Shown here one piece after another: positions 3,305 to 36,538 of a stretch of 64,000 nt of DNA; within the stretch, counting starts at the first letter, position 1, and every line of letters begins with the position of its first letter. Below the pieces are notes generated by a model. That model was not told where the DNA came from and searched no databases. It saw only the letters and a list, made by a program, of their open reading frames with translations. The stretch is from Formosa algae. Its GTDB lineage: Bacteria; Bacteroidota; Bacteroidia; Flavobacteriales; Flavobacteriaceae. The position numbers were made by a program, and so were the translations under genes. The stretch is taken from the NCBI RefSeq assembly GCF_001439665.1, contig NZ_LMAK01000078.1:1-64000 (forward strand), given 5' to 3'.

Positions 3305-3375
3305 AATTACGGTTTTACTGTAAACACATTAGTCCAAATTGTATTATTTTTAGAATTGTAATTATAACCAAGACT
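3305..3375 (+). promoter_or_regulatory. Conserved upstream box 1 (TTACGG...TTATTTTTAG), array 1
   Basis: TTACGGTTTTACTGTAAA starts at 3307 and TTATTTTTAG starts at 3344, exactly 37 bp later; ATAACCAAGACT follows at 3364. The same three blocks with the same spacing recur upstream of many genes in this window. TTATTTTTAG resembles a Bacteroidota -7 element only loosely, so promoter function is inference. The copy lies directly before the array 1 leader. Confidence 0.6.
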
Positions 3376-3420
3376 CTTTACGGGATAAACAAACGTTTAT
3401 TTAGTATATTAGGAGTTAGC
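3376..3420 (+). other. Array 1 leader, attI-like site
   Basis: The block holds the palindrome ATAAACAAACGTTTAT, then TTAGTATATTAGGAG and ends with GTTAGC at 3415-3420. Close copies start arrays 2 and 3. The bases GTTAGCTTTA just after the leader are the exact reverse complement of TAAAGCTAAC at the far end of the first cassette (3871-3880). This is what integrase-mediated insertion at a G/TT crossover would leave, so I read it as an attI-like insertion site. No integrase is seen. Confidence 0.6.
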
Positions 3421-3429
3421 TTTAATTAA

Positions 3430-3873
3430 ATGACATTCGATAAAATGAATCATATTTCAATGGAATTCACACCTTCTCAACTCGGAGAAACTAAAAAAGT
3501 GTTTTTGAAAAATGGCTCATCAATCTCGACAAAATGGAAAAAAGAGAATGAATATATAATACGTTACAAACCTGAAAATTATGCAGACTATTATTCTCCG
3601 TATTTCTTATTTCAATTTGAAAATAGAACTTTAAAAAGAATGATTCCATATCCAAATAAAAGGTCATTTGGTTATATGACTATTATTATGATTGGATTTA
3701 TATATTTCAAAGGAATTAAACCTGATTTGTATTTGACACTAATTGGTTTTTCAATAGTTTTTGTTTTTTTATTGCAATTTGTTGTTGGAATTGCCGCCTA
3801 TAAGAAAATAAAGAATAATGTTTTCGGAAAGAATATAACGAAAATAAAAGAAACGTCTGAATTAAAAAACTAA
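3430..3873 (+). CDS. Hypothetical two-helix membrane protein, cassette 1 of array 1
   Basis: The 147-residue product has a polar N-terminal ~75 residues (KNGSSISTKWKKENEYIIRYKPENYADYYSPYF) and two hydrophobic helices near 78-97 and 103-124, followed by a basic tail. No family is recognised. ATG 3430 lies 10 bases after the leader's GTTAGC, and AGGAG of the leader lies about 15 bases upstream. The stop codon at 3871-3873 begins the following attC-like repeat, so gene and repeat form one unit. Confidence 0.7.
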   Translation: MTFDKMNHISMEFTPSQLGETKKVFLKNGSSISTKWKKENEYIIRYKPENYADYYSPYFLFQFENRTLKRMIPYPNKRSFGYMTIIMIGFIYFKGIKPDLYLTLIGFSIVFVFLLQFVVGIAAYKKIKNNVFGKNITKIKETSELKN

Positions 3874-4009
3874 AGCTAACACCGTATAAAAAAAATTGCT
3901 AGTTTTAGCTAAACCAAAGTTAGTTGCTCGTTTGCTAGCTTCTGATTTTCCTTCGGAAAATCCTCGCACACAAACACGCAACTTTCCTTATACATAAACG
4001 TTAGCTACA
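3871..4009 (+). repeat. attC-like site 1.1
   Basis: This ~135-bp imperfect palindrome starts TAAAGCTAACACCGTATA and ends TTATACATAAACGTTAGCTACA. The outer arms pair as AGCTAAC/GTTAGCT and GTATA/TATAC, and the inner arms as TTGCT/CGCAA. A perfect central hairpin GATTTTCC-TTC-GGAAAATC lies at 3944-3962. It separates two unrelated genes and matches the other spacers of the three arrays. Confidence 0.75.
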
Positions 4010-4012
4010 ATT

Positions 4013-4477
4013 ATGAAAAAAACAAATTTCGGATTAATTTTAATACTTCTGACTTTCTTTGTTTCCTGCAATGAAAAGAAAATATCGGAATTAAATAATC
4101 GGATTACTGACCTCGAAATTCAAAATAAAAAACTGACCGATTCGATTTCTAAAGCGGACTATTATAAAGTTTTAGGCTCAAACATTGTCGGACTGACTGC
4201 TAAACCTGAATTTATTGTAAATGAAAAAAGTGACGTGAAATTTCTTTTTAATTACCCTGAAAAATTACTGACTTATAATGTTTACACGACTACTAGCGAT
4301 GGAAAACCTGATAAGCTGATTTTCGAAAATCTCACGGATAATAAATTCATGTATAGTTTTATTCCAGAAAAAGTTGGAGAGCACAATATTAAATTAGTCG
4401 CAGTTTTTAAAATGAACAATAAAGAAAATGAAGAAATACACGTTCCGACAAATTTATATGTTACTGTAAAAGAATAA
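4013..4477 (+). CDS. Hypothetical lipoprotein with short coiled coil, cassette 2 of array 1
   Basis: The product starts with a type II signal peptide, FFVSC with the lipidated Cys at residue 19, so it should be anchored in a membrane facing the periplasm. Residues 25-45 (ISELNNRITDLEIQNKKLTDSIS) form a heptad-like coiled coil. The rest looks like a beta-sandwich (VLGSNIVGLTAKPEFIVNEKSDVKFLF). No named family is recognised. It is flanked by attC-like sites on both sides and starts right after GTTAGCTACA, which is partly complementary to its downstream boundary TGTGCCTAAC (8 of 10). Confidence 0.75.
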   Translation: MKKTNFGLILILLTFFVSCNEKKISELNNRITDLEIQNKKLTDSISKADYYKVLGSNIVGLTAKPEFIVNEKSDVKFLFNYPEKLLTYNVYTTTSDGKPDKLIFENLTDNKFMYSFIPEKVGEHNIKLVAVFKMNNKENEEIHVPTNLYVTVKE

Positions 4478-4484
4478 AAAATAC

Positions 4485-4621
4485 TGTGCCTAACAAAGTA
4501 TATAAAAAATTGCTATTTTGTGCTTAATCAATGTGAGTTGCTTTGTTTACTAGTATCCGATTTTCCTTCAGAAAGTCCTCGCATAAAAACTTGCAACTAT
4601 TCTTGTATAAACGTTGCAACC
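4485..4621 (+). repeat. attC-like site 1.2
   Basis: The site runs from TGTGCCTAACAAAGTATA to TTGTATAAACGTTGCAACC. It keeps the TTGCT/GCAAC inner arms and the GATTTTCCTTCAGAAAGTCC centre, which is a slightly worn hairpin. An open frame from 4520 into the next gene is just translated repeat and should not be used as the gene start. Confidence 0.7.
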
Positions 4622-4630
4622 ATTATTAAT

Positions 4631-4870
4631 ATGAAAGATAAATCGACTAAAAAACTAAATAGTGAGTTAAAAATTAAAAAATCAGCAACAATTTCGCTAA
4701 TTATAGTTTTAGCCCTATTGCTTTGCGTCTGTATATACGGATTAATAGCAAAAGAAAATAAAAGCGTTTTTATCTCTTTAATGATTATTCCTTTTTCATT
4801 AAGCTCAATAGTTTTCCTAAATTATAGAAATATGAAAAAAATAAAAAATGAATTGGAAACAAGAAAATAG
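4631..4870 (+). CDS. Small two-helix membrane protein, cassette 3 of array 1
   Basis: I place the start at ATG 4631 (MKDKSTKKLNSELKIKK), because all codons upstream of it lie in the attC-like repeat. The 79-residue product has a charged N-terminus, helices near residues 20-39 and 47-65, and a basic tail. No family is recognised. The next gene starts 10 bases after its stop, with no repeat between them, so both appear to belong to one two-gene cassette. Confidence 0.65.
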   Translation: MKDKSTKKLNSELKIKKSATISLIIVLALLLCVCIYGLIAKENKSVFISLMIIPFSLSSIVFLNYRNMKKIKNELETRK

Positions 4871-4879
4871 CATGTATTA

Positions 4880-5347
4880 ATGAATTACAAAACAATTTTC
4901 CACTATGTAAGTTATTTTCAGTATCCTTTAATGCTAACGGCATTATATTTTTCTTTTAGCCCATACCTTAATGGTCTTGAAGAGATTAAAAAAAACCCTG
5001 ATTTAATTTTTTTAAAGCTGAACTCGGCACTAATTTTTATGGGACTAGGAATGAGTTTTTCGTCTTTACAAGATACCACTAAAACGCAAAACACGTTTTC
5101 AGAGAAGGTTTGGAAAAACCCAAAGAAAGGAAAAATTATGATTATAATATTAAGCTTTATGATTCTATTATTTCTGATATTTGGATTAACAGGATACTAT
5201 TTCGTGAATTCTGGAGTTTTTAAAGAATTATCCATTGGACTTATTATTACCGGATTAGGAATGTTTGGATTTTTAAAATCTGCAATTGAAATGTTTGAAA
5301 ATCATAGAATAGATAAAAACACAGATTACAACAATGGCAATAACTAA
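4880..5347 (+). CDS. Hypothetical four-helix membrane protein, second gene of cassette 3
   Basis: The 155-residue product has hydrophobic helices near residues 12-30, 45-62, 86-108 and 115-135. Its last codons (DYNNGNN and stop) are read from the start of the next attC-like site at 5324, so the repeat supplies its C-terminus. The function is unknown. It is likely co-transcribed with the small membrane gene 10 bases upstream. Confidence 0.7.
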   Translation: MNYKTIFHYVSYFQYPLMLTALYFSFSPYLNGLEEIKKNPDLIFLKLNSALIFMGLGMSFSSLQDTTKTQNTFSEKVWKNPKKGKIMIIILSFMILLFLIFGLTGYYFVNSGVFKELSIGLIITGLGMFGFLKSAIEMFENHRIDKNTDYNNGNN

Positions 5348-5460
5348 TTACTTATTCTCGCCTAATTTTAAAATTCCAAGAACATTTTAAACTTAATATG
5401 TACTTGCAAAATCAAGTGCTGAACCACGCAATTAATATTATTCATAATCCGCTAGCTACC
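5324..5460 (+). repeat. attC-like site 1.3, partly degraded
   Basis: The site starts GATTACAACAATGGCAATAACTAATTAC and ends CATAATCCGCTAGCTACC. It resembles site 2.1 (GGTTACAACAATGGCTATAAG). The centre has lost hairpin pairing and the crossover GTT has become GCT. Its start still matches the end of site 1.2 in complement at 7 of 9 positions. Confidence 0.6.
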
Positions 5461-5491
5461 ATAAAAAACCATATAATTAATAGTAACGTTA

Positions 5492-6319
5492 ATGACATTT
5501 AATACACCTTTTCCTTATAATGCTTCTTTTAAAATTCACATCATTATTGGTGGAATCCTGGGCCTTTTATTAAGTTTTATTTTAATTACGTTACAGCCTT
5601 TCAATTTAAATAATTTCAACCATAAATATGGAGACGTTTTACTTTTAGGTTTTGGGTTAGTAAAATTTTTAAATTATACTGTAGCACACTTTGTAGAAAA
5701 CTACTTTTATAAACTACACAAAAAATGGACACTTTGGAATGAAATAATATTTCTTATCCTATCGTCGCTAACCGGAGCAATTCTTGGTTATATCTATTTA
5801 GATTTAGTTTTCGAAAATCAACCCTTATCATTTCTAAGGCTAATACTCTTTTTATATTATATTGTTTTACCCATTCTGCCTTTACTTATTTTTCCTAAAT
5901 CGGTACTACGTTATCTCATTATTAAAAGTCGAATAAAAGATTTGAATACGAATAACAATGAGAATACTGAGACTAAAGACATTGCATCAGAAAAAATAAT
6001 TTTAACGGGACAAAGCGTTAATGATAAATTGATGATTTTTAAAGAACAACTCGTATATGTAAAATCTATCGATAACTATGTGAAGGTATATTATAGCGAT
6101 GAAAAATTAAAAAGTAAGATGTTGCGAGCTAGTTTATCTGAAATTTTAAACCAAGCCCCATTTCTAATTAAACCACATCGTTCTTATTTAATAAATCCAG
6201 AACATGCATTTAAAATTGAGGGTAATTCTCAGAAAGCAGTGCTTGTCTTAAAAAACCTCAACGAAGATATTCCCATCTCCAGAATGGCGTATAAAGACAT
6301 GAAAGCGGTATTCCATTAG
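5492..6319 (+). CDS. LytTR-family transcriptional regulator with membrane-spanning N-terminus
   Basis: Residues 1-150 hold about four hydrophobic helices (IHIIIGGILGLLLSFILI, EIIFLILSSLTGAILGYIYL, LILFLYYIVLPILPLLIF). Residues ~175-275 match a LytTR DNA-binding domain (KEQLVYVKSIDNYVKVYYS, MLRASLSEILNQ, LIKPHRSYLINPEHAFKI, ISRMAYKDMK). LytTR proteins normally act as response regulators; this version lacks a receiver domain and would be a membrane-anchored regulator of unknown signal. It follows attC-like site 1.3, and 126 bp later comes a hydrolase gene; the two may share a cassette. Confidence 0.85.
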   Translation: MTFNTPFPYNASFKIHIIIGGILGLLLSFILITLQPFNLNNFNHKYGDVLLLGFGLVKFLNYTVAHFVENYFYKLHKKWTLWNEIIFLILSSLTGAILGYIYLDLVFENQPLSFLRLILFLYYIVLPILPLLIFPKSVLRYLIIKSRIKDLNTNNNENTETKDIASEKIILTGQSVNDKLMIFKEQLVYVKSIDNYVKVYYSDEKLKSKMLRASLSEILNQAPFLIKPHRSYLINPEHAFKIEGNSQKAVLVLKNLNEDIPISRMAYKDMKAVFH

Positions 6320-6445
6320 TCCCTTTTGCCTATACAGTTCATACCAAAAACACCTATTTCACCACTAAATACGGCAATCCACAACTCATTTTTTAATGTG
6401 TTTATTTTTTTAGTTTGATTTGTCTCAACATAAAAAATAAACAAA

Positions 6446-7318
6446 ATGAAAAGAGCACTAAAAATTGTAGGTTATGCCATATTACTAATTATAGTTTCGG
6501 GAATAGGATTTGGCATATACAAATATCAGACTGATGATATGTTAAGAGCGATGATTAATCAAGATGAATCAAAACTTTCTTATGGACCGTTAAAAGAGAT
6601 TGTATCATTAGAAAAATTTGATTTTGAAGAATATGAATTAGAAGTAAATGATTCAATCAAAATATACACCTATCTATTTAAGCCGTCCATACAACCAATA
6701 GGGAACGTTTTTTTTATTCACGGTTCAGGAGGTAATGCTGCCTATTGGTCGTCACTATACAAACCACTTATTGATGAAGGATATAATGTATATGCAGCAG
6801 ATTGGCGTGGATATGGTAAATCTACTGGTTCACCTAATTATAGAGGTGTTTTGAAAGATACTGAAGTTGCATTTAAAGATTTTCTAGACAAAACTAAAAC
6901 AGATAGTTTAAAGCATATTGTTTACGGCATGTCGTTAGGGGGACAATTAGCTATTAAAATCACTATGGACAATCAAGAACATGTAGATGCTTTAGTACTA
7001 GATAGCGCTTTAGAATCTGCTCAAAAAATAGCCATCGATTACGCCCCTTTTGAATTTTTAAAAAACAGAGCGAGACATCATCCCGAAAGTTTTAATCAAT
7101 TATATGTGGGTTCAAGAGACATTAAATCGATAAGAAATATACCAAAATTAATCATTCATAGCGCTAACGACTTACAAGTATCTATTAGTCACGGAGAAAA
7201 TCTTTTCAAAAACGCCAACGAACCTAAAACATTTTGGAAAACAGAAACATCTCATATTATGACATTACGAGATGAACCGAAAGAAGCTATTAAAAGAATA
7301 AATAGATTAATACAGTAG
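6446..7318 (+). CDS. Membrane-anchored alpha/beta hydrolase
   Basis: The N-terminal ~25 residues are one hydrophobic anchor. The rest is an alpha/beta hydrolase: oxyanion HGSGGNAAYW near 91, nucleophile elbow GMSLGGQ near 162-168, acid in SANDLQV near 240, and catalytic His in the C-terminal SHIMTL. It resembles the BAAT/esterase type with unknown substrate. The stop codon at 7316-7318 falls within the degraded attC-like site 1.4. The left (5451) and right (7314) boundaries share a complementary GTAGCTA core, so this gene and the LytTR gene may be one cassette. Confidence 0.85.
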   Translation: MKRALKIVGYAILLIIVSGIGFGIYKYQTDDMLRAMINQDESKLSYGPLKEIVSLEKFDFEEYELEVNDSIKIYTYLFKPSIQPIGNVFFIHGSGGNAAYWSSLYKPLIDEGYNVYAADWRGYGKSTGSPNYRGVLKDTEVAFKDFLDKTKTDSLKHIVYGMSLGGQLAIKITMDNQEHVDALVLDSALESAQKIAIDYAPFEFLKNRARHHPESFNQLYVGSRDIKSIRNIPKLIIHSANDLQVSISHGENLFKNANEPKTFWKTETSHIMTLRDEPKEAIKRINRLIQ

Positions 7319-7449
7319 CTACACTGCATATCATTAATTGCAAATACTTGCTTACTTACAAAAATCCACACAGACTTTCAATTTATGATTTATTTGCTAA
7401 CTTTAGGTGTTTTTGAACACGTAACTATTCTATACAAACACGTGGACAT
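7314..7449 (+). repeat. attC-like site 1.4, degraded
   Basis: AGTAGCTACACTGCATATCATTAATTGC starts the site and TATACAAACACGTGGACATT ends it. Between them, CTTGCTTACTTAC, GACTTTC and TTTATTTGCTAACTTTAGG match sites 2.3 and 3.1. The central hairpin is broken and the final GTT has become GTG. Confidence 0.55.
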
Positions 7450-7462
7450 TCATTGAGACAGA

Positions 7463-8299
7463 ATGTTAAAAATGAGAGAAGAAATTTCAGTAAACAAAGC
7501 TATAAACAGAGGACATTTAATTGTAAACATACCCGTTTTCGTATCCATGTTCGGAATTCCTGCTTTGGCACTTTATTTAGCTCAAAATAATTCAATTCCA
7601 AAATGGGGAGTTGTAATTAGTTTTATCATTGGATTTATAGTTGCTTGGTTAGTTTGGAGTTTTATGATAACCAAATGGAGAATTTGGGCTTTCGATAATG
7701 TTAGAAATGTTCACGAATTAAAAAAAAGAGCAATTGCTGAAAAACTTATCTGGAATGATGGGAAAATTTTTGAAAAAACAGAAATAAAAAGTCCTAAGCA
7801 AAAACGAAAACTGAAACTTCTTGAAAAGAAATTTGAGGAAGAAGATGTTTTCAAAGAAGATTTTTCAGCACCAAAATCAAAAACTATATATTATTCTAAA
7901 TCAACGAACTTGATTCAGATGTTTATTATGATAGCTTGTTCAATTCTTGGAATATATCTAATATTAGATTCGGGAAGTTACATAATGGGTTCTTTATTTA
8001 TAATCGGTGGAATTTATTACGCTTATAAAGCTTTCAAAAAAGCTACGATTACAGCACCGCAAATAATAATAAACGACAAAGGAATTGAAACAATACAAGT
8101 GAATTTTAAGAATTGGAGCGAAATTAAAAATGAAGAAGTACTAATTAAAAACAACGGAAATCACGCAAGTGCATATTTAAATTTTGATTTTAAAGAAGGT
8201 TTTGAAAGTTTGCAAATTGACGACTTTGACATTACACCTAAAGACATGGAAAATTTATTAAGAACGTATAGAATTAGAAATAAAAAAAATTACAGCTAA
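7463..8299 (+). CDS. Hypothetical membrane protein
   Basis: The 278-residue protein has two helices near residues 21-41 and 47-68, a long charged coiled-coil-like middle (KKRAIAEKLIWNDGKIFEK...KLKLLEKKFEEED), two more helices near 148-185, and a C-terminal PH-like segment (IIINDKGIETIQVNFKNWSEIKNEEV). No family is recognised. A second ATG at 7472 is an equally good start. It lies between degraded attC-like sites 1.4 and 1.5. Confidence 0.7.
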   Translation: MLKMREEISVNKAINRGHLIVNIPVFVSMFGIPALALYLAQNNSIPKWGVVISFIIGFIVAWLVWSFMITKWRIWAFDNVRNVHELKKRAIAEKLIWNDGKIFEKTEIKSPKQKRKLKLLEKKFEEEDVFKEDFSAPKSKTIYYSKSTNLIQMFIMIACSILGIYLILDSGSYIMGSLFIIGGIYYAYKAFKKATITAPQIIINDKGIETIQVNFKNWSEIKNEEVLIKNNGNHASAYLNFDFKEGFESLQIDDFDITPKDMENLLRTYRIRNKKNYS

Positions 8300-8432
8300 T
8301 ACCTATATAATGACTTGCCATGTTCTTCCTGAGTTGTAAAAATGTCCTCAGAATTAAAAAAACACCCTTAAAATCTTCTAAATTAGTCAATTTAACCTAG
8401 CAACAAATCAGACACAAACAGGTTTCTAAATA
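8293..8432 (+). repeat. attC-like site 1.5, heavily degraded
   Basis: CAGCTAATACCTATATAATGACTTGCC and, 100 bp later, TTAGTCAATTTAACC then GCAAC and ACACAAACAGG line up with both arms of site 2.3. The centre contains TGTCCTCAG but no stable hairpin. The call rests only on these two arm matches. Confidence 0.4.
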
Positions 8433-8497
8433 TTGCAGACCAAACTTAAAAATGAAACAATACTAAATACGCTGAATTGAATACAGTAAAAGCTACT

Positions 8498-9245: not shown

Positions 9246-9271
9246 CTCTATATTTTTTCTGCTGCAAATTT

Positions 9272-12460: not shown

Positions 12461-12535
12461 TTTACGGTTTTACAGTAAAAGGAAATGGCAGAATTGTGGT
12501 ATTTTTAAAAGTCTTACTTTAATAAGAGATAACTA
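12461..12535 (+). promoter_or_regulatory. Conserved upstream box 2, array 2
   Basis: TTACGGTTTTACAGTAAA begins at 12462 and GTATTTTTAA at 12499, again 37 bp apart. The crossover GTT of the leader is at 12570, 108 bp from TTACGG, the same distance as in array 1 (3307 to 3415). Confidence 0.6.
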
Positions 12536-12578
12536 CAGGATAAACGAATGTTTATTTGGTATAAAAGGAGTTGTAACC
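12536..12578 (+). other. Array 2 leader, attI-like site
   Basis: The block contains the palindrome ATAAACGAATGTTTAT, then TTGGTATAAAAGGAG and the junction GTTGTAACC at 12570-12578. The junction is the exact reverse complement of GGTTACAAC at 13789-13797, the far end of the first cassette. It matches leaders 1 and 3 nearly base for base. Confidence 0.6.
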
Positions 12579-13780: not shown

Positions 13781-13788
13781 AAATAACT

Positions 13789-13922
13789 GGTTACAACAAT
13801 GGCTATAAGTAATTGCTTGTTCTCGCCTACTTCTGAAAATCCTCGCGGATTTTCAGCTTGGTGTGTACTTGCACAGTTAAGTGCTAACCCACGCAACTAC
13901 TCATAGCCCAACCGTTGGCACC
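13789..13922 (+). repeat. attC-like site 2.1
   Basis: The site runs from GGTTACAACAATGGCTATAAG to CATAGCCCAACCGTTGGCACC, with arms ATGGCTAT/ATAGCCCA and TTGC/GCAA. A perfect 10-bp hairpin, CTGAAAATCC-TCGC-GGATTTTCAG, lies at 13833-13856. Confidence 0.75.
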
Positions 13923-13999
13923 AATTTGACAACTTACGTAAGTTAATTGTAATTGCGTAATAGAATTAAACAGTTGAGCTTTGTAAAAAAATAACAGAA

Positions 14000-14920
14000 A
14001 TGATAATAGAATATAATTTTGCAAATGACTTACTGGAAAGAATAGAAGAAGAGTTAATTAACTATGACGACAAAAACAAAATTCAAGTCATTAAACGCTT
14101 TTCATTAAGTAAACTTGCAAATCTTGAATGGATGAGAAAAAGTCAAGATTTTAGTTTTCCAATTAACTCAAGTGGTTCAACAGAAATTATTCAAATTACA
14201 AAAGAGTTTTACGAACTTCTAGTAAATGGTTGGAAAGAAAAACATCATGAATTAGTGAAAGATGGAATTCCTGCGACAATCGAATCAATGATGGAATCTG
14301 ATTTTCCTGATGAAACTATTCATTCAGCAATTTATGACAAAGTTTCAAGACTAATATATCAATATGATGAAGTATTAAAATGCAGTAAAGAAACCAATGG
14401 CCTTTTTGGAATTGAAGACGAAGAAAAAATATTATTAATTCATCTAAATAAATATAATGAGATTTTAAGTTCTGATTTTAAGCAAATCGAATTTCTACAC
14501 GGAGTTACTTTAAATAAAAAAATCAGTGATTTAATCTTAGAAATTTACATTCGATTTATCAATTTAAGATTAGAAATGCTTAATCCAAAAATCACTCAAA
14601 TTGAAGAACGAAAAACTGAAATAGCAACTAAAATTTTATGGAAAGGAAGTCAAAGAGATTTGTGCGAACTTTTTATCGAGTTGCAAGAAAAAGAATGGAT
14701 TAATGAATTTGAATGGGGAGAACGAAATAAAATGGCGCAATCAATTTGTAACTTATTTGATTTAACTTTAACCAAGAAAAATAAAAACAGTAATGTTGAG
14801 AATTCATTTTACCAAATTTTAAAAGGAACTCATAATCCGAAAACGAAGAAAAGGGAATATGATGAAGTTTTAGGAAATGTGAATGATAGAAAATTTAATG
14901 AAATAAAAAACAGGTGCTAA
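14000..14920 (+). CDS. Hypothetical protein with RteC-like C-terminus
   Basis: The 306-residue product is soluble and mostly helical. Residues ~210-306 (LWKGSQRDLCELFIELQEKEWI, AQSICNLFDLTL, NSFYQILKGTHNPKTKKREYDEVLG) resemble the C-terminal domain of RteC, the regulator of Bacteroides conjugative-transposon excision; the N-terminal 200 residues are not recognised. A role in mobile-element control is possible but unproven. Its stop codon TAA is read from GCTAAC of site 2.2, so the repeat supplies the last codon. Confidence 0.65.
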   Translation: MIIEYNFANDLLERIEEELINYDDKNKIQVIKRFSLSKLANLEWMRKSQDFSFPINSSGSTEIIQITKEFYELLVNGWKEKHHELVKDGIPATIESMMESDFPDETIHSAIYDKVSRLIYQYDEVLKCSKETNGLFGIEDEEKILLIHLNKYNEILSSDFKQIEFLHGVTLNKKISDLILEIYIRFINLRLEMLNPKITQIEERKTEIATKILWKGSQRDLCELFIELQEKEWINEFEWGERNKMAQSICNLFDLTLTKKNKNSNVENSFYQILKGTHNPKTKKREYDEVLGNVNDRKFNEIKNRC

Positions 14921-15049
14921 CACCGTATAAAAATAATTGCGGTTTAGTGCTTAATCAAAGGTCGTTGCTTGTTTTTAACGTCTGATTTTCCTTCGGAAAA
15001 TCCTCGCATACAAACCCGCAACTATTCTTATACATAAACGTTAGGCAAC
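14913..15049 (+). repeat. attC-like site 2.2 (best preserved type I)
   Basis: The site starts GGTGCTAACACCGTATAAAAA and ends TTATACATAAACGTTAGGCAAC. The left arm GTATAAAAATAATTGCGG pairs with the reverse complement of the right arm, GTATAAGAATAGTTGCGG, at 16 of 18 positions. The perfect hairpin GATTTTCC-TTC-GGAAAATC lies at 14984-15002. The two ends differ by unpaired bases, as in real attC sites. Confidence 0.8.
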
Positions 15050-15067
15050 ATTAAAAAAAAACACATT

Positions 15068-15895
15068 ATGTTAAAATGGTACGCAGATAATACAGAACTA
15101 AGTACTGAAAAAGGAAAACCTAATGTTCTAGTATTTGGAGGAGTAATTGTTGACGAAAATTCCGAGAAGAAAATAGAGAAACTTTTACGAGATATTAAAA
15201 GCAAATATACCTATCCTACTCTGCCACTTAAATGGAATTTTAAGGATTTAAAACCAACTTACAAAGAATTTAATCGCTTAAAAGAATATGAAGCACTCTT
15301 AAAAGATTCTTATGAATGGAGAAATGAAATTTTCACAAGGTCATTAGATATAGATTATAAAGTCATACTTGCTTGTACACAAAGATATCCTTCAGACAAA
15401 CCTCTAAGTAAAATAAAAGAGCAATTAACTGAAATTTGTTTTTCTCAATCATTAATGCGAGTAGGAATGTTTGCTAAGCATTTACCGTTCAAAGAAAACT
15501 TTGAAATTATTTTAGATTGGCCAGATGGAAGTAATCCTAAACCTTTTAATAGAGAATATTTCAAAGCCTACAATTTGGGACAATCATCAAGTCAAATAAA
15601 TTATCTTTCAGGACCACTCATTAATCTTGGATTTAATGATAGTCTATATTATGCGAAATCTACTCATTCTGCAGTACTTCAATTTGCTGATTTAGTTATA
15701 GGAGCTGCCAAAGATTTTATGTTAAAGTCTATTCATAATCACGATCATTCATTAGGTTATAACTTAACTTCAATTATATTACCAAAATATCAAGGATATC
15801 CAAATAAAATAATTGAATATGGAATGAATTTTGCACCTAAATCATCTGAATGTTATACTAAAATAAACAATGAAATAAAAAATAACGTTGCCTAA
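15068..15895 (+). CDS. DUF3800 family protein
   Basis: The 275-residue product has the DUF3800 layout: N-terminal WYADNT in place of the usual DESG, FGGVIVDENSEKKIEKLL, an acidic DWPDG near residue 155, and the C-terminal LQFADLVIGAAKDFM. DUF3800 proteins are predicted RNase H-like nucleases and are often found in mobile or defence loci. The change at the first acidic motif retains one Asp. The stop codon lies inside GCCTAAC of the following site, and the cassette ends are exact complements (GTTAGGCAAC and GTTGCCTAAC). Confidence 0.75.
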   Translation: MLKWYADNTELSTEKGKPNVLVFGGVIVDENSEKKIEKLLRDIKSKYTYPTLPLKWNFKDLKPTYKEFNRLKEYEALLKDSYEWRNEIFTRSLDIDYKVILACTQRYPSDKPLSKIKEQLTEICFSQSLMRVGMFAKHLPFKENFEIILDWPDGSNPKPFNREYFKAYNLGQSSSQINYLSGPLINLGFNDSLYYAKSTHSAVLQFADLVIGAAKDFMLKSIHNHDHSLGYNLTSIILPKYQGYPNKIIEYGMNFAPKSSECYTKINNEIKNNVA

Positions 15896-16024
15896 CAATG
15901 CATATATTTTATTGCTAGGTTCTAGCCTGCTTACGAAAGTCCTCGCGGACTTTCTATTCGGTTTTTATTTACTAACTTAGTGACTTAACCACGCAACTAA
16001 CCGTACACAAAACCGTTGTGCAAA
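15887..16024 (+). repeat. attC-like site 2.3 (type II)
   Basis: The site starts GTTGCCTAACAATGCATA and ends CGTACACAAAACCGTTGTGC. The perfect hairpin GAAAGTCC-TCGC-GGACTTTC lies at 15935-15954, and the TTGCTAGG/ACGCAAC arms are kept. The central stem has a different sequence from site 2.2 yet pairs fully. Confidence 0.8.
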
Positions 16025-16027
16025 ATA

Positions 16028-16924
16028 ATGAAAAACCTACTTCAAATAATAATTCTGATATTTAGTTCAACCTTGTTTGGACAAGATTATTATGAAGTCG
16101 ACCTATCCAGAGAAAAACCTAATCTTAAAAATGTTGTTTTAAAAACAAAGACCTTAAGAGATTCAACTGGAATTACAGACTACATTTCAAATATTCAGAT
16201 TTATGACAAAAATGGAATTTCAACATTGGAATTTGATTTGAATAAAAAAGGAGATACTTTAGAAAAAATAACTACTTCTTTTCCTGATAAATATTCTGAA
16301 TTACAAATACATAGTTATTCAAATGCAAAAAGCGACACAGCATATTATTACTATAACAAAAACAACTTTGAGAAAAAGGAAATTTGGAAATGGGGAGATA
16401 ATAATGAAACTGACACTTATGAATTCTTCTTTGACGAAAACAATAGACTTCTAAAGCAAGAAGTTTACTTCGGAGTTGAAAAATCCTGGGATACTCTGAT
16501 ATACAAAAATGACCGAATTACAACAGTTCTTTCCTACGATGACACATTTGAGAGACAAGATTCAATTTCTTATTTATACAACAAAAAAAATCATTTAGCC
16601 AAAATTTTTAAATTTAATTTGGCAAACGAATTACAAGAAACGCAGACTTTTAAAACCAATCAAAAAGGACAGTTTAAAGAAATAATAAAAGAGTTTAAAA
16701 CGTTCGAATGGTCAAAAGACAAAAGGAAACACATAATTCGAATGGAATATCATCTGAACGGAGAATTGAAAACAAAAATTGTAGAGGAATTTATAAATGA
16801 AACGTTAGAAAGTAAAAGCGAACTGAATTTTAACGAATTTGGACTTCTGGAAAAAATCAAAGTAGAAAATCTAACGAAAGGAACAACAAGTGAAAAGAAA
16901 ATTACTTTGCACAACCCCGTGTAA
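16028..16924 (+). CDS. Hypothetical secreted protein with YD-like strand repeats
   Basis: I place the start at ATG 16028 (MKNLLQIIILIFSSTLFGQ, a signal peptide); a TTG at 16016 lies in the repeat. The ~280-residue mature protein consists of repeated short beta units (YNKNNFEKKEIWKWGD, FFDENNRLLKQEVYFG, LYNKKNHLAKIFKF, FNEFGLLEKIKVENL), like the YD/RHS-type or toxin-41-repeat style proteins of Bacteroidota. It is probably periplasmic or surface exposed. Its stop lies in the next attC-like site, and the cassette boundaries match over 14 of 15 bases. Confidence 0.65.
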   Translation: MKNLLQIIILIFSSTLFGQDYYEVDLSREKPNLKNVVLKTKTLRDSTGITDYISNIQIYDKNGISTLEFDLNKKGDTLEKITTSFPDKYSELQIHSYSNAKSDTAYYYYNKNNFEKKEIWKWGDNNETDTYEFFFDENNRLLKQEVYFGVEKSWDTLIYKNDRITTVLSYDDTFERQDSISYLYNKKNHLAKIFKFNLANELQETQTFKTNQKGQFKEIIKEFKTFEWSKDKRKHIIRMEYHLNGELKTKIVEEFINETLESKSELNFNEFGLLEKIKVENLTKGTTSEKKITLHNPV

Positions 16925-17040
16925 AATTAATTGCTATTGCAAGCTTACTTACGAAAATCCTCGCGGATTTTATATTCGGTTTTTATTTGCTAAATTACAT
17001 GCTAAACCACGCAACGTATCATATACAAAACCATATGCAA
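16906..17040 (+). repeat. attC-like site 2.4 (type II)
   Basis: The site starts TTTGCACAACCCCGTGTA and ends CATATACAAAACCATATGCAA. The AAAATCC-TCGC-GGATTTT hairpin lies at 16954-16971. The right crossover GTT is damaged (CCATATGC). Confidence 0.7.
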
Positions 17041-17072
17041 TTAACCAAAAACACAACTAAAATTAGACTTTA

Positions 17073-17732
17073 ATGATTCAAAAATTAATTGAAAGAACCA
17101 ATACAACAGAATTTTATCAAGACTCTGATTTAAAGCTTGAATCGTACAATTATAATCCTTCCAGTAATACTTTAGAAATGTTTTTGTCAATTAACCAAAT
17201 CAGTTATGACATTCCAATTGAGTATGAAGAATGGAAATTAACTTGCATAAAAACCGAAAATTTTAATGGCTTCTTTAGTCAACGAATGCTACCCTATGTG
17301 AAATTAAAAGTTCTAAAAAATCATCCTTTGTTATTGAAATATCATGAAAATGAACTTGAATGCGAAATAAAAGGAAAACCAGAAAATGTAAATGAATTTA
17401 TTGGAGAACTTAGCAATGTTTTGGAAAAAGAAACAGGAAATTGGATTACAGTAAATGAATATTTTTGGAATAATGTAGAGTATTACAAAAAGTATTCTAA
17501 AAGAACTATTTGCATCCCAAAGTCTTTAGAGAAATCGATAAAAGAAGTTTGCAAAAAACATAAATTGAATTTTAGTGTAAATAATGAAATTATTGGAGAA
17601 GACAAAGGTTACGCTGACAAACCAAAAGCAAAAGTTCTAATCTTTGGAAATGAAGATGTAAGTCCTAATGACTTTTTTTTAAATCAACATTTTATAATTG
17701 CCGAGGAGTTTACCGCTGAACGAATTAAATAA
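17073..17732 (+). CDS. Hypothetical soluble protein, cassette of array 2
   Basis: The 219-residue product has no signal peptide and no membrane helix. It mixes beta strands (LEMFLSINQISYDIPIEYEEWKLTCI) with a helical middle and ends with an alpha/beta part (RTICIPKSLEKSIKEVCKKHKLNF, AKVLIFGNEDVSPNDFF). No family is recognised. It lies between sites 2.4 and 2.5. Confidence 0.65.
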   Translation: MIQKLIERTNTTEFYQDSDLKLESYNYNPSSNTLEMFLSINQISYDIPIEYEEWKLTCIKTENFNGFFSQRMLPYVKLKVLKNHPLLLKYHENELECEIKGKPENVNEFIGELSNVLEKETGNWITVNEYFWNNVEYYKKYSKRTICIPKSLEKSIKEVCKKHKLNFSVNNEIIGEDKGYADKPKAKVLIFGNEDVSPNDFFLNQHFIIAEEFTAERIK

Positions 17733-17736
17733 TAAT

Positions 17737-17864
17737 AACGGCATACAACAATGGCTATAAGTAATTGTTAGTTACAGCCTACTTACGAAAATCCTTAAAA
17801 ATTTTATATTCGGTTTTTATTTAAAAAATCAAGACCTTAAACCATACTCTAACACGTTAGCACC
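17737..17864 (+). repeat. attC-like site 2.5
   Basis: The site starts AACGGCATACAACAATGGCTATAAG, like site 2.1, and ends CTAACACGTTAGCACC. The type II centre is worn (GAAAATCCTTAAAAATTTT), and CGGTTTTTATTT matches sites 2.3 and 2.4. Confidence 0.65.
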
Positions 17865-17981
17865 AATTAGAACGCAACAAAATCAATAACTGGCATGAAT
17901 GTCGTAAAAATGTCGTATTTAAACCGTTATCAAAATGGTATTTTCATAATTAATTTTGCCATAAAATAAACGTTATTACTT

Positions 17982-18557
17982 ATGAACGAAATTGGGAAAA
18001 AAATTAGAGACGTTAGAAAGAAAAAAGGACTATCTCAAGAAGAGTTAGCTGAATCTGCAAAAATTAACTTGAGAACTATTCAACGGATTGAAAATAATGA
18101 AAGTGAACCAAGAGGAAAAACTCTGAATTTAATTTGCAAAGTTTTAGACTTAAATGCAGAAGACATTCTAGATTACGGAAAAAAAACCGACAAAAGCTAT
18201 TTAACTTACTTTCATTTGTCTGTATTATTGGGTCTTATTATTCCAATAGGAAATATAGTAATTCCATTTATCTTATGGATAACTAAGAAAGATAAAATAA
18301 TTGATTTGAAAGATATGGGAGCCAATCTTTTGAATTTTCAAATTATTTGGACTTTACTTGCTTTTTTTGGGTTAATAATTGGAGCATTTCTTAAGATTAC
18401 ACATTTAGAAATTGGTCCAGGAAATTTAATACTTTCATTATATTTTTGGCTTTTTCTTTATGTTATAAACATCATTTTACCAATAATATTTGCTATCAAA
18501 GTTAACAAAGGGCAAACAGGAAATTTTTATCCCAACATCATAAAATTAATAAAATAA
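17982..18557 (+). CDS. XRE-type regulator fused to a DUF4870-like membrane domain
   Basis: Residues 4-64 are a Cro/C1-type helix-turn-helix (IGKKIRDVRKKKGLSQEELAESAKINLRTIQRIENNESEPRGKTL). Residues ~75-190 hold four hydrophobic helices with the DUF4870-like LLGLIIPIGNIVIPFILWITKKD. The fusion would make a membrane-bound regulator. The signal is unknown. A clear relative lies in array 3 (42661-43278), so the same cassette family was captured twice or duplicated. Cassette boundaries GTTAGCACC and GGAGCTAAT pair at 7 of 9. Confidence 0.85.
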   Translation: MNEIGKKIRDVRKKKGLSQEELAESAKINLRTIQRIENNESEPRGKTLNLICKVLDLNAEDILDYGKKTDKSYLTYFHLSVLLGLIIPIGNIVIPFILWITKKDKIIDLKDMGANLLNFQIIWTLLAFFGLIIGAFLKITHLEIGPGNLILSLYFWLFLYVINIILPIIFAIKVNKGQTGNFYPNIIKLIK

Positions 18558-18559
18558 CT

Positions 18560-18698
18560 GGAGCTAATATCGTATAAAAATATTGATTAACTTAGTCCTT
18601 AATCAAGAGTTAGTATACTTTTGTAACTCCTGACTTTCCTGCGGAAAATCCTCGCATACAAAACAGCAACGTTCATTACACAAAACCGTTAGGCATAA
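18560..18698 (+). repeat. attC-like site 2.6
   Basis: The site starts GGAGCTAATATCGTATAAAAA and ends ACACAAAACCGTTAGGCATA. The centre, GACTTTCCTGCGGAAAATCC, is a mixed form with GGAAAATCC of type I and GACTTTCC of type II. Confidence 0.7.
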
Positions 18699-18707
18699 TT
18701 TAAAAAA

Positions 18708-19187
18708 ATGATACTGAAACACATTATACTGGGATTTATATTCGGAATTTCAATGTCCTTTATATCTTGGATAGTCGGAATGATTATCAACAGTATTCTT
18801 ATGAAAACGGCATATTACAAAAAGCTATCTAATCTGAATTTTATTAAAAGCAAATCTCTGAATAAAAATATCGGAATCAAATACTTTAAATGGATTGTAA
18901 AAAATACTTTTTTCAAATTTTTTAATCAGAAAATCAAATTAGAAAACAGAAATACCGACTTGACCGTAATTCGGAATGAAATGACTATCTCTGAAATAAG
19001 TCATTTAATCGGATTTATCTTTGTGACCATTTTTGCTATTTACAAAAGCATTGATGTGGGAATATTATTCGGATTGATAATGATGATTCCTAATGTTTTA
19101 ATGAACTTATACCCTTTATTATTACAACAGGAAAATAAAAGACGAATTGACAAAATGATGAAAAGAAAAACAAAAAACTGTAGCTAA
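18708..19187 (+). CDS. Hypothetical membrane protein, possibly CrtO-acyltransferase-like
   Basis: The 159-residue product has helices near residues 5-27, 95-113 and 118-140 and ends with NVLMNLYPLLLQQENKRR. This ending resembles the NxYPxLLQRxNRxR signature of glycosyl-diaponeurosporenoate acyltransferase-like membrane proteins; the match is from memory and weak. Its TAA stop at 19185-19187 lies in GCTAAC of site 2.7. Confidence 0.6.
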   Translation: MILKHIILGFIFGISMSFISWIVGMIINSILMKTAYYKKLSNLNFIKSKSLNKNIGIKYFKWIVKNTFFKFFNQKIKLENRNTDLTVIRNEMTISEISHLIGFIFVTIFAIYKSIDVGILFGLIMMIPNVLMNLYPLLLQQENKRRIDKMMKRKTKNCS

Positions 19188-19314
19188 CACCGTATAGTTA
19201 ATTGCTTTGTTCTTCCCTACTTACGACTATCCCTGCGGAATATTTTATTCGGTTTCTATTTACTAAATTAGGTGCTAAAACGCGCCACTAATCTTATACA
19301 AAACCGTTATAACC
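19179..19314 (+). repeat. attC-like site 2.7, last of array 2
   Basis: The site starts TGTAGCTAACACCGTATAG and ends CTTATACAAAACCGTTATAACC. The centre ACGACTATCCCTGCGGAATATTTT is worn, and CGGTTTCTATTTACTAAATTAGGTGC matches type II sites. The crossover GTT is intact. Confidence 0.65.
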
Positions 19315-19752: not shown

Positions 19753-20255
19753 AAATCAAAATGAATACAGAGTGTGCAATCTTCTCAACATTTTCACATA
19801 CTTACTTAGTCGTTATCTATTCTTACTCCTAAAAGGCTCTACGCCTCTTTGTCCCTAGCTAATTCCAATAAAAACCCTTTTCAAAATATACAAAAATGCA
19901 TTACCAAATTTGAACACATGGAATTAAAATCAATTCAGGATAATGGCGTAATGTAAACCTTTAAATATATAAACACGACCAACAAAATAATAGATCTTGA
20001 CTTTAGGCCTATAATGGTTAAGTTAAAAAACCCTACACAGTAGCACTAAACACAGATAATTACAGTCTACGAGTAAACAAGTTAGACCAAATTATGGTAT
20101 TTTTAGAATTATTTTTAACTGAATAATCCAGGTAGGATGCTCTTTAGCGTAAAGAGATTAGGAACAAAAAAAAAGAAACCATAAAAACAAAAACCGATGT
20201 CCTATTTTAACACTCTCAATCGTCATAAAGGTATAAACATAACATATTAGAAACT
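19753..20255. other. 503-bp intergenic region with upstream box 3
   Basis: 19753-20040 shows no credible gene on either strand: the frames are short and broken. The only recognisable parts are upstream box 3 at 20056-20110 and a hairpin CTCTTT-AGCGT-AAAGAG near 20140-20156, at the place of the leader palindrome in other copies. Confidence 0.5.
20056..20156 (+). promoter_or_regulatory. Conserved upstream box 3, before the YCII-ECF operon
   Basis: TTACAG begins at 20060 and GTATTTTTAG at 20097, 37 bp apart, as in the other boxes. CCAAATTATG precedes the second block. It is followed by a short hairpin and then, about 100 bp later, by ATG 20256. Confidence 0.5.
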
Positions 20256-22450: not shown

Positions 22451-22577
22451 TAATTACGGTTTTACAGTAAAGGCTGTATACCAAATTGTTTTATTTTTAG
22501 GGTTATGATTTAATCTACATGTCCTGACTAACGGTATAGGTATTTATAGCGTTTCAGGAAAAATAACAGATGTTAGA
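22451..22577 (+). promoter_or_regulatory. Conserved upstream box 4 with leader-like tail
   Basis: TTACGGTTTTACAGTAAA begins at 22454 and TTATTTTTAG at 22491, 37 bp apart, with CCAAATTGTT before the second. A tail with ACGGTATAGGTATTTATAG and AGATGTTAGAA (22570-22576) takes the place of the leader end. The gene start follows at 22590. Confidence 0.5.
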
Positions 22578-23056: not shown

Positions 23057-23494
23057 AAAAAAATTAAGCATTTTAAGACTTTACATCATAAGCTTAGTCT
23101 GTATTGTAAGTTATGTTTTATTAGAAAACTCTAACATTATACTAGAACACTAGCTTAGACAACAAACCGCTTCAATTAGGCCTATAAAAACACAACCCAA
23201 TTGTTAGGGTAACTCCCTTTACGTTTTATATTGAAAAGCAAATTGTTTATCATTAAAATAACTATTGTAAACACTGAAACGTTTCGCTACACTATCCTAT
23301 TTAAAAGGATAAGATCGCTTCATGCAAAGGTCTTACCCAAAAAATGTTGTAATTACGGTTTTCCCGCAAAACAAATTCACCAAAATACTTTATGTTTATA
23401 ATTACTATTCTAAAAACAACATAACCAATGTTTTGCAGTATATTAGAAGAGCCCAACCTTTAAAAAAGAGTAACAACTTAACACTATATACAAT
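23057..23494. other. 438-bp intergenic region with box 5
   Basis: At 23053-23160 one frame reads KKKLSILRLYIISLVCIVSY and then VLLEN, a single membrane helix without a start codon, perhaps a remnant of a small gene. The rest to 23340 shows no gene. Box 5 and its leader-like tail fill 23351-23455. Confidence 0.45.
23351..23455 (+). promoter_or_regulatory. Conserved upstream box 5 with leader-like tail
   Basis: TTACGGTTTTCCCGCAAA begins at 23353 and TTATGTTTAT at 23390, 37 bp apart. The tail ATAACCAATGTTTTGCAGTA followed by TATTAGAAGAGCC lines up with the array leaders, except that the crossover GTT reads GAG. It precedes the TlpA-like gene by about 45 bp. Confidence 0.5.
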
Positions 23495-27322: not shown

Positions 27323-27440
27323 TTATTACGGGTATTCTGTACCGTAATTATGCCAAATTGTTTTATTTTTAAGGAAACAAATTTAACTAGACTTCTGGCT
27401 TAAATAAACGCGCGTTTGTTTGGGTTTCAGAAGTTAAATA
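27323..27440 (+). promoter_or_regulatory. Conserved upstream box 6 with leader-like tail
   Basis: TTACGG begins at 27326 and TTATTTTTAA at 27363, 37 bp apart; CCAAATTGTT precedes it and TTAACTAGACTT follows at 27383. The tail has AATAAACGCGCGTTTGTTTG (a palindromic core) and AGAAGTTAAATAACC; the GTT at 27433 is 107 bp from TTACGG. The GH30 gene starts at 27463. Confidence 0.6.
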
Positions 27441-30207: not shown

Positions 30208-30280
30208 ATAATTACGGTTTTACCTCAAATGAGTTTACAAAATTTATATTATTTTTAATACTAGTAAATTAACCAGACTT
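30208..30280 (+). promoter_or_regulatory. Conserved upstream box 7
   Basis: TTACGGTTTTACCTCAAA begins at 30212 and TTATTTTTAA at 30249, 37 bp apart; TTAACCAGACTT follows at 30269. A tail with CTGGTACAGTTTAAACC near 30319-30335 may be a worn leader end. The next gene starts at 30363. Confidence 0.55.
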
Positions 30281-31112: not shown

Positions 31113-31230
31113 GAACTACGGTTTTCAGGTATAGCGGTTACAAATAATAGTTTTATTTTCGGACTATAATATTATCAAGACTTCTTCTCAGACAACCATC
31201 GTTGAGTTTGAGATATAAGAAGTGGGCAGT
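31113..31230 (+). promoter_or_regulatory. Conserved upstream box 8 with leader-like tail
   Basis: CTACGGTTTTCAGG begins at 31116 and TTATTTTCGG at 31153, 37 bp apart, with ACAAATAATAG before it. TTATCAAGACTT follows at 31172. The tail CGTTGAGTTTGAGATATAAG then AAGTGGGC ends 106 bp from the first block. The next gene starts at 31251. Confidence 0.5.
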
Positions 31231-31250
31231 AATCCAAGAGACTTGTTACC

Positions 31251-31871: not shown

Positions 31872-31965
31872 TACTATTTAAGAATTTAAACGCACTAAAA
31901 TGTATAAACCTAAGAACTATTATAAAACCATAACACACACAACCTAATTGTTTTAAGAAACGCGT

Positions 31966-32017
31966 TTAATTCCGGTTTTATATTAATTCCATTACAAATA
32001 ATTGTCTTACTTTAATA
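31966..32017 (+). promoter_or_regulatory. Conserved upstream box 9, worn
   Basis: TTCCGGTTTTATATTAAT begins at 31970 and TTACTTTAAT at 32007, 37 bp apart; ACAAATAATTGTC precedes the second block. No leader tail is left before ATG 32074. Confidence 0.4.
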
Positions 32018-32073
32018 CAAAATTTCACAAAACCCCAACTAGCAACCTAACTTTAAAACCTCATTACAATACC

Positions 32074-33945: not shown

Positions 33946-34104
33946 CCTAAAACACAAGCTCAAACAAAACCACGCAAAACATTGAAGTGTATCTGTGAAA
34001 TTGGTGTAAGAATGGTATATAAATTACATGTCATTCTTAATTCATCAGCAGTTTCACGCAACCTTTGACATTATTATCATCTATAAAATAAAACCTTACC
34101 TGTT

Positions 34105-34536: not shown

Positions 34537-34650
34537 TAATTCTAAGCAGCACACACCCTATTAACTTTTATACATCAACAAACCTACGCACTACACTAGC
34601 TCTAAGTCTGTTTAAAAAAGTGCGCTTTAGATTTTAACATAAACATATTT

Positions 34651-34676
34651 CAAAGAATTGTTTTATTTTTAGAAAG
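34651..34676 (+). promoter_or_regulatory. Partial upstream box 10
   Basis: CAAAGAATTGTTTTATTTTT and AGAAAG match the second block of the other boxes (TTATTTTTAG at 34663), but the TTACGG block expected 37 bp upstream is not recognisable. It lies 45 bp before the beta-lactamase-like gene. Confidence 0.35.
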
Positions 34677-34707
34677 CTATGAATAAGAAAGCCTAAAAAA
34701 TAAGACT

Positions 34708-36150
34708 ATGAAAAAATTTTACGTTGCAGCCCTACTGTTATTATCCATCAGTTCGAGCTTTTCCCAAACAGATAAAAAGGACTATAGTGAAGCCTTTAAA
34801 CTTGTAGAAGTCTGGCTAGATGCTCAAAAAGATTTTGACAATTTACCCAGTTTAACCGCTATTGTAATTGAAGATCAAGATGTGTTGTGGTCAGGCGCTT
34901 TTGGTCTATCGTACGTAGAAAAGCAAATTAAGGCAGAACCTTCTACACGTTGTAGTATATGTTCTATTTCTAAGTTATTCACATCGGTGGCTGTAATGAA
35001 ATTATATGATGAAGGAAAACTACGCTTAGACGATAAAGTAAGCGACTTACTTCCGGCTTATAAAGTGGAACAGCAATATCCAGAAAGCGGCCCGATTACC
35101 GTAAGAACATTATTAACGCATTCTTCTGGACTTCCTAGAGAAGCCGCCTATCCTTATTGGACAGGTCCAGATTTCCCTTTTCCTACCAAGGCACAAATAG
35201 ATTCCAAATTAAGTGAACAAGAAACCTTGTATCCTGCCTCCACGTATTTTCAATATAGCAACCTAGGATTTACCCTTTTGGGTGAAATTGTTGAAGAACG
35301 TTCTGGCATGCCTTATGATGAATATGTAGAACAAAACATACTCATCCCGCTTGGACTCACTAACACCCAAACCACACTACCAGAGCAATTATATGGTAAT
35401 GAACTCGCCGTAGGTTATAGCGCTATATCGCGACAAGGGAAACGCGAACAAGTGAACTTCTTTCAGGCCAACGGCATTACACCAGCTGCTGGATTTTCTT
35501 CAAACGTGCTAGATTTAGGGAAATTTGCGTCGTGGCAATTCCGATTAAGAGATACCACTGTGACCGAAATACTAAAGCCTTCAACTTTAAAATACATGCA
35601 AAATATACATTGGATAAACCCAAAATGGGGAACCACATGGGCATGGGGACTCGGATTTATTATTTCTAAAGGTACAAACGGAAATACTTGGGTGGGACAT
35701 AACGGCATTTGTCCAGGGTATAAAACCACACTAAACATAGATTTAGATAGTAAAAGAGCCTATTCGGTCATGATTAACGCTAATGGTGTAAATCCAGAAA
35801 AATATGTTAACGGCATAGATGGCATCATTAAAAACGTAAGCAAAGCACAGCCTGCCACAGACAAAGCTACACAGAAAAAGCTATCAGAATTTGTTGGATA
35901 TTATAGTCCGTTACCATGGTCTAGTGAAGTTTACATCTCTACATGGAATGGCAAACTGGTAAGTCTTGGATTGCCTTCAGAAAAACCAGGATCTGCAATG
36001 ACGTTTTACAAACACATACAAGGCGATACCTTCCGTAGAATAAGAGATAATAAGGAACTGGGAGAAACTTTAACTTTTATACGCGATACAAACGGGACCA
36101 TTACTAAATATAAAAGTCATGGAAATTATGCTCAGAAATTAGAGCGGTAA
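34708..36150 (+). CDS. Serine hydrolase of the beta-lactamase/CubicO family
   Basis: A signal peptide (YVAALLLLSISSSFSQ) is followed by a class C beta-lactamase-like domain: SxxK motif S86-I-S-K89 (CSISKLFTSVAV), the YSN motif in FQYSNLGFTLLGEIVEERSGMPYDEYV, HSSGLPRE, and GHNGICPGY in place of KTG. The C-terminal ~110 residues form an added domain. The family includes D-aminopeptidases and esterases, so resistance to beta-lactams should not be assumed. It is likely periplasmic. Confidence 0.9.
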   Translation: MKKFYVAALLLLSISSSFSQTDKKDYSEAFKLVEVWLDAQKDFDNLPSLTAIVIEDQDVLWSGAFGLSYVEKQIKAEPSTRCSICSISKLFTSVAVMKLYDEGKLRLDDKVSDLLPAYKVEQQYPESGPITVRTLLTHSSGLPREAAYPYWTGPDFPFPTKAQIDSKLSEQETLYPASTYFQYSNLGFTLLGEIVEERSGMPYDEYVEQNILIPLGLTNTQTTLPEQLYGNELAVGYSAISRQGKREQVNFFQANGITPAAGFSSNVLDLGKFASWQFRLRDTTVTEILKPSTLKYMQNIHWINPKWGTTWAWGLGFIISKGTNGNTWVGHNGICPGYKTTLNIDLDSKRAYSVMINANGVNPEKYVNGIDGIIKNVSKAQPATDKATQKKLSEFVGYYSPLPWSSEVYISTWNGKLVSLGLPSEKPGSAMTFYKHIQGDTFRRIRDNKELGETLTFIRDTNGTITKYKSHGNYAQKLER

Positions 36151-36190
36151 ACGTCCTTTTACGTCCTATTTTTATTCTGTATAAAATGGC

Positions 36191-36310
36191 ATTATTACGG
36201 TTTTACCACAAGCAAATTAAACAAATTTACTTTATTTTTAGAACGAGAAAGCCAAACAAATTTTTCAACCCAGTGCGACTTTGTTTATGGTAACACCTAA
36301 CAGGTATTAA
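36191..36310 (+). promoter_or_regulatory. Conserved upstream box 11 with worn leader tail
   Basis: TTACGGTTTTACCACAAG begins at 36195 and TTATTTTTAG at 36232, 37 bp apart, with ACAAATTTAC before it. A tail with TTTGTTTATGGTAACACC and CAGGTATTAAG ends near 36308, 108 bp from TTACGG at GTATTAAG (36303). Confidence 0.5.
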
Positions 36311-36490
36311 GATGCTATTTTTCTAGAGACAACGCTTTGTATTTTATAAAAGCAATGTTGAGTTAAATTAGGATTTGGCATCTAATTTAAACACTAAATA
36401 TAGATTCTAACACAACGACAAATGCCTATTCAGAACCAAAAGTAACACTGTGTTACAATTTTATATAAATAAACTTAATAAGCTGCTTTG

Positions 36491-36538
36491 CCGGGATAAA
36501 CGAATGTTTATTTGGTATGATAGGAGTTGGCGGTAAAC
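36491..36538 (+). other. Array 3 leader, attI-like site
   Basis: The block has the palindrome ATAAACGAATGTTTAT, then TTGGTATGATAGGAG and the junction GTTGGCGGTAAAC at 36526-36538. The reverse complement GTTTACCGCCAAC matches GTCTACCGCTAAC at 37134-37146 at 11 of 13 positions. The body is nearly identical to leader 2. Confidence 0.6.

Follow-up and report, generated by a model that had tools for sequence, protein, structure and literature searches.

What is the element that recurs through the first 37 kb of a stretch of the Formosa algae genome, in front of cassette arrays as well as single genes? The window discussed here is that whole stretch of 64,000 nucleotides (positions 1-64,000 of the forward strand of contig NZ_LMAK01000078.1, hereafter C78, assembly GCF_001439665.1), in which a first-pass annotation had noticed ten pairs of TTACGG-like and TTATTTTTAG-like blocks at a 37-bp step and had seen in them a module, promoter-like and insertion-site-like at once, that matched no named element. 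We distinguish an upstream promoter-like block, M, from a downstream block, L, read as an attachment site (attI), and call M+L a head. The module can now be assigned to an integron-type platform: M+L is probably the array head, i.e., cassette promoter plus attI, of an integron-like system of the Flavobacteriaceae, copied around the genome and presumably served in trans.

The evidence that carries this reading lies at the cassette junctions. L reads GGATAAACnnnnGTTTATTTnGTATnnnAGGAG^TT, and GGATAAACnnnnGTTTATTTnGTATnnnAGGAGTT is part of 41 bp beginning 67-72 bp downstream of TTACGG; conservation stops at GGAGTT, and the letters downstream vary from copy to copy. In an integron, attI is directly followed by the first cassette, whose own attC has an R'' arm that pairs with the cassette's first bases. 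The attC sites were modelled here by sequence alone, RNAalifold having given no consensus pairs in attC. Testable sites, for which the first attC is assembled, number 13: nine heads and the integrase attI of this genome, and three sites of the congener G014. At all 13, the R'' arm of that attC is matched in reverse complement by the bases that follow G^TT, with at most one of the seven variable bases mismatched, whereas wrong pairings average 4.7 mismatches; the observed mismatch total was reached by 0 of 200,000 permutations. Because of this match L is, as judged from its junctions, an attI. Each of the three intact copies in the window (Table 1) opens an attC array, and the earlier placing of the copies at 3307 and 12462 at the start of arrays 1 and 2 was borne out. 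Beyond the window, L was found on contigs C7, C24, C34, C71 (one intact copy, one damaged) and C81 (three copies). The genome holds about 11 heads and about a dozen copies of the attachment site, most of them joined to a predicted promoter and far from the single recombinase gene by which they could plausibly be served. On C71, the damaged copy has no R'' match and the other runs off the contig. The exact L pattern was absent from the viral contigs searched.

The genome encodes one 400-residue tyrosine recombinase (C11:228867-230066), the others being XerC/XerD homologs and, on C27, a match that is weak and partial. It is transcribed toward its own attI: the stop codon is followed by CATTGTTTAGTATATAACTAG^TTACC, the attI, and then by cassettes with attC. 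As in an integron, this attI adjoins the integrase gene; it also shows the R'' pairing. The order integrase-attI-cassette was found in many genera, e.g., in Subsaximicrobium wynnwilliamsii, Wenyingzhuangia heitensis and Zunongwangia mangrovi, the first cassette of Subsaximicrobium pairing in 10 of 10 bases. An ATAACnnGTT core lies no more than 200 bp past the integrase stop codon, mostly within 40 bp, at 27 of the 29 loci read in other Flavobacteriaceae, and the attC family is present in 13 of 14 genomes searched. The catalytic residues R239, K264/K267, H328, R331, H354 and Y363 are invariant in 26 sequences. The enzyme has about 100 extra N-terminal residues, positions 15-84 being modelled as a mixed strand-helix domain (overall predicted template modelling score, pTM, only 0.52), and TIGR02249 matches it only at 1-175 and 239-313. 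Its best NCBIfam match is NF040815 (XerA-type), at 212 bits and thus below the cut-off of 220; archaeal Xer proteins top both lists of the structure comparison, with IntI4 (2a3v) close behind. In a tree with long branches and open forks, from which no order is claimed, IntI, the family of the C11 enzyme and a Chryseobacterium plasmid enzyme stand apart from Xer. The GGATAAACnnnnGTTT element of L also occurs, inverted, between the C11 integrase and its attI (L021:18136, minus strand), with a similar element in G014, and might be an accessory site of the recombinase.

Block M consists of TTACGGTTTTACNGTAA followed by TAYTTTT[A/G]. Its 17 copies align without gaps, and counts from 16 of them give a palindrome-like block, approximately TTACGGTTTTMCNGTAA, and a box TA[TC]TTTT[AG] at columns 39-46. 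All ten pairs reported earlier were recovered at their positions and spacing. The strict two-block pattern has 3 matches in the window and 0 in 100 shuffles; when up to 3 mismatches are allowed, the fixed-spacing pattern has 13 matches in the whole genome (0 in the reversed control), and a 63-column M profile finds 22 sites at E<1e-4. This profile agrees that no copy lies in the 37-64 kb part of the window, and it adds to the ten a partial copy at about 34632. As for the AACNAGACTT element described 20 bp further on, a few copies share a loose resemblance and nothing stronger. In Flavobacterium, the published -7 element, TAHHTTTG, spans -12 to -5 (PMC6847099, PMC9723704). It fits columns 39-46 of M, and the alignment would place the transcription start near column 51 and the palindrome centre near -42. 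The latter is a usual position for an activator. The good match to the flavobacterial -7 box together with the palindrome near -42 thus makes M a predicted activator-type promoter, with cassette promoter as its predicted role; the promoter role suggested by the first-pass annotation gains a recognizable box, and the activity itself is still a prediction. Searching the literature for the sequence of M turned up no regulatory motif.

Comparison with congeners places these copies in a genomic context. Within the genus, the head profile matches in 4 of 6 genomes, with 20 matches here, 6 in G301, 2 in G299 and 1 in G014 (the search of congener G300 was restricted to heads). Downstream of a tesA-like gene, Formosa algae carries a head and array (C24) and G301 a head with other contents, while in G014 the tesA-like gene is directly followed, with no head, by a gene that is found here beyond the C45 array. 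Downstream of deoCD, G014, G301 and G299 match the head profile, the G014 match being M+L, and Formosa algae has M in the aligned position, without L. There deoCD lies near the end of C35, with M reading outward, and the window is the start of C78; orthologs of the window's genes from 46980 onward lie about 2.6 kb (G299) and about 14 kb (G301) past the deoD head. By this synteny the first 47 kb of the window, with its ten M copies in the same direction, would be an enlarged hotspot between deoD and the gene at 46980; the C35-C78 and C24-C45 joins are inferred. The attI-like end proposed earlier is therefore sustained for the intact heads by junction complementarity, by the attI beside the integrase, and by heads that are absent or differently filled in congeners. 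Behind some G301 heads (L166, L167), TCGAGTGGATGGCTCCGCCATC follows in the putative cassette end, which differs in this from the attC family modelled here and is possibly another attC type. Two arrays without integrase remnants, in G014 (L121:7469) and G168 (L129:3979), start with near-copies of the attI that is linked to the integrase of the same genome; M+L heads are thus not the only attI sites that stand apart from an integrase.

The first-pass annotation described the module as ending in an attI-like site; that every copy does so is not supported, since most copies in the window have no L left. Its joint promoter and insertion-site description fits the intact heads. The leader end expected 106-108 bp from TTACGG is intact behind 3307 and 12462, reduced to weak remnants behind 27326 and 31116, and missing at 36303. 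Of 13 L-less copies, 7 have their highest L score at an offset of 64-73, a result equalled by 2 of 2000 random sets, the offset window having been taken from intact heads and the test designed after a first look at the scores. Such copies are likely to be old heads whose attI has decayed, the promoter being left before a fixed gene. An ordinary regulon, in which M would be a promoter or operator used by arrays and other genes alike and the L-less copies would never have been attachment sites, could account for M before genes that are not cassette-like (ECF operon, GH30), for its palindrome-like block, and for an M-like site without L ahead of a TonB-type gene in another genus (G071). We consider it unlikely, as an L trace survives at the expected offset in half of the L-less copies and M sits with arrays: 20 of the 22 M sites are no more than 10 kb from an attC, a zone that makes up 6.6% of the genome (9 of 11 when C78 is excluded), and M reaches E<1e-5 in only 3 of 199 family genomes, those of Formosa algae, G014 and one other, and is almost restricted to the genus. 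Since M sites are neither independent of arrays nor conserved as a motif across related genera, M is, on this distribution, not a general regulon motif.

A different objection concerns activity and not identity: heads might have spread by ordinary duplication or homologous exchange only, leaving the distant arrays as dead fossils that the recombinase does not touch, comparable to clusters of attC sites lacking integron-integrases (CALIN). Decayed heads do exist (C71, 27326, 31116), and no integrase remnant was seen on the array contigs read other than C11. Against this, nine Formosa algae heads retain exact pairing with their first cassette, the contents of the tesA head differ between Formosa algae and G301, and cassettes of array 2 have counterparts elsewhere, their sequence (18627-19196, 19417-19759) showing 68-78% DNA identity to the integrase-linked array of G014, with one at 73% in G245; the fossil explanation is accordingly doubtful. 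That M+L is a mobile repeat resembling a transposon or a miniature inverted-repeat transposable element, and bears an attI by chance, seems very improbable. Many copies in one lineage and the empty tesA site in G014 would suit such a repeat, but its right end is a cassette junction, and no terminal inverted repeats or target duplications were noticed in the copies read, no dedicated search for transposon ends having been made.

Some observations nonetheless weigh against the favoured reading. In an alignment with IntI1, a Vibrio IntI and 2a3v, the recombinase is missing the IntI-specific insertion, which has been called essential for integron function, though it is not fully conserved in its subgroup (PMC8138268). 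By this absence the C11 recombinase is not a canonical IntI, while its gene layout, as read here, works like an integron. The left half of the head attI, TAAGGAGTT, differs from that of the integrase attI, ATAACTAGTT, and the heads may consequently be a poorer substrate. In the head of array 3, the intact leader lies about 300 bp past the TTACGG at 36195. Folding of single-stranded attC gave an outer stem in several sites, only some of them better than shuffles. Finally, a search for cassette junctions at the L-less copies found none, so it is the L traces that speak for a head origin of these copies.

In the proposed mechanism, extra attI sites, most with their own promoter, would have been copied to many places in the genus, and the C11 recombinase would most likely insert cassettes at all distant heads in trans. 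Exchange at G^TT would put a circular cassette between head and array, where its gene would fall under M, which would drive the first genes; a promoter of its own makes sense at a distant head if, as we infer, no integrase transcript reads in. Heads could multiply by homologous exchange, by duplication, or by attI x attI exchange that stacks units. More speculatively, a head could travel inside a multi-cassette circle, as the three C81 heads stand among attC sites and heads of C7 and C81 have sequence upstream of M in common. This sequence, seen at the C7 head (L022:5445) and at two C81 heads (L023:8826, 17856), begins CTAACACTGCATATC-like, resembling the start of an attC. A bolder version, which we put forward only tentatively and hold to be rather unlikely, makes the heads mobile docking units: the integrase without the IntI-specific insertion would join attI with attI or with attC, circles of promoter, attI and cargo would enter at heads already present and stack in one direction, and the window's ten M copies, which all point one way between deoD and the 46.98-kb gene, would make up an island of this kind, with non-cassette genes such as that for GH30 as cargo.

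The features of the window are collected in Table 1. Rfam and tRNA scans of the window gave no matches. The TlpA-like gene (23495-24628) behind the M copy at 23353 has a paralog that is the first gene past the intact C24 head (L007). Between two attC sites of array 3 lies a DUF4297-HerA gene pair (38270-41177; PADLOC DUF4297 + HerA, HerA E 8e-264), a known anti-phage system that appears to be carried as a cassette.

Table 1. M copies, L blocks and cassette arrays in the window (positions in the window).
Feature	Position	Strand	Details
M copy, head of array 1	3307..3353	+	palindrome-like block 3307-3323, predicted -7 box 3345-3352
L = attI of array 1	3377..3417	+	predicted exchange point between G 3415 and TT 3416-3417; matches R'' of attC 3868-4004
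Cassette array 1	3868..8423	+	attC 3868-4004, 4482-4612, 5321-5449, 7317-7443, weak 8290-8423
M copy, head of array 2	12462..12508	+	block pair and profile
L = attI of array 2	12532..12572	+	GTT 12570-12572; R'' pairing
Cassette array 2	13785..19309	+	attC 13785-13913, 14909-15044, 15886-16018, 16904-17034, 17738-17858, 18556-18692, 19176-19309
M without L, ahead of YCII / DUF1569 / extracytoplasmic function (ECF) sigma genes	20060..20106	+	
M without clear L, ahead of small open reading frame	22454..22500	+	
M without intact L, ahead of TlpA-like gene	23353..23399	+	
M and weak L remnant at proper offset (70), ahead of GH30	27326..27438	+	
M, no intact L (strongest trace at offset 67), ahead of small membrane protein	30212..30258	+	
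M and L remnant at offset 68	31116..31223	+	
Weak M without L, ahead of DUF4139 protein	31970..32016	+	
M about 300 bp ahead of array 3 attI	36195..36241	+	
L = attI of array 3	36488..36528	+	GTT 36526-36528; pairs with R'' of attC 37136-37269, one mismatch
Cassette array 3	37136..43418	+	attC 37136-37269, 38099-38231, 41181-41306, partial 42509-42552, 43293-43418

Integrons are described as one integrase, one attI beside it and one array. With the sedentary chromosomal integrons of the Vibrio type, the Formosa system shares a tyrosine recombinase, attI, attC cassette arrays and predicted orientation-specific insertion, but its integrase has no IntI insertion, bears an N-terminal extension, points toward attI and is remote from many additional attI heads that carry a predicted promoter. 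In the Treponema integrons, too, intI is transcribed in the cassette direction, toward an attI behind its stop codon, but they were described with one attI each, scattered promoter-attI heads not being reported (PMC3607928). Window arrays 1-3 resemble CALIN in that their attC sites lack an integrase in the vicinity, unlike the C11 array, which has one; they differ in that a conserved attI opens each array, in most cases along with a promoter-like block. XerA-type enzymes, to which the best NCBIfam match and the archaeal Xer structures point, have neither the extra N-terminal domain of the Formosa enzyme nor its association with attI and arrays of attC cassettes. In a survey of complete genomes, Salinibacter ruber was the one member of Bacteroidetes proper with a complete integron (PMC9024848), and our literature search, with most subscription papers and all preprints outside its reach, found neither Flavobacteriaceae integrons of such a kind nor multiple attI sites or scattered promoter-attI heads.

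The Flavobacteriaceae would thus possess a widespread system whose recombinase does without an insertion held to be essential for integrons (PMC8138268), and one genus would have multiplied its attachment site across the chromosome, usually together with a promoter-like block. If this is confirmed, a natural enzyme lacking the usual part would allow a test of which protein parts the reading of attC requires, arrays now assigned to CALIN could turn out to be live satellites, and cassettes could be captured and expressed by a single cell at many loci simultaneously.

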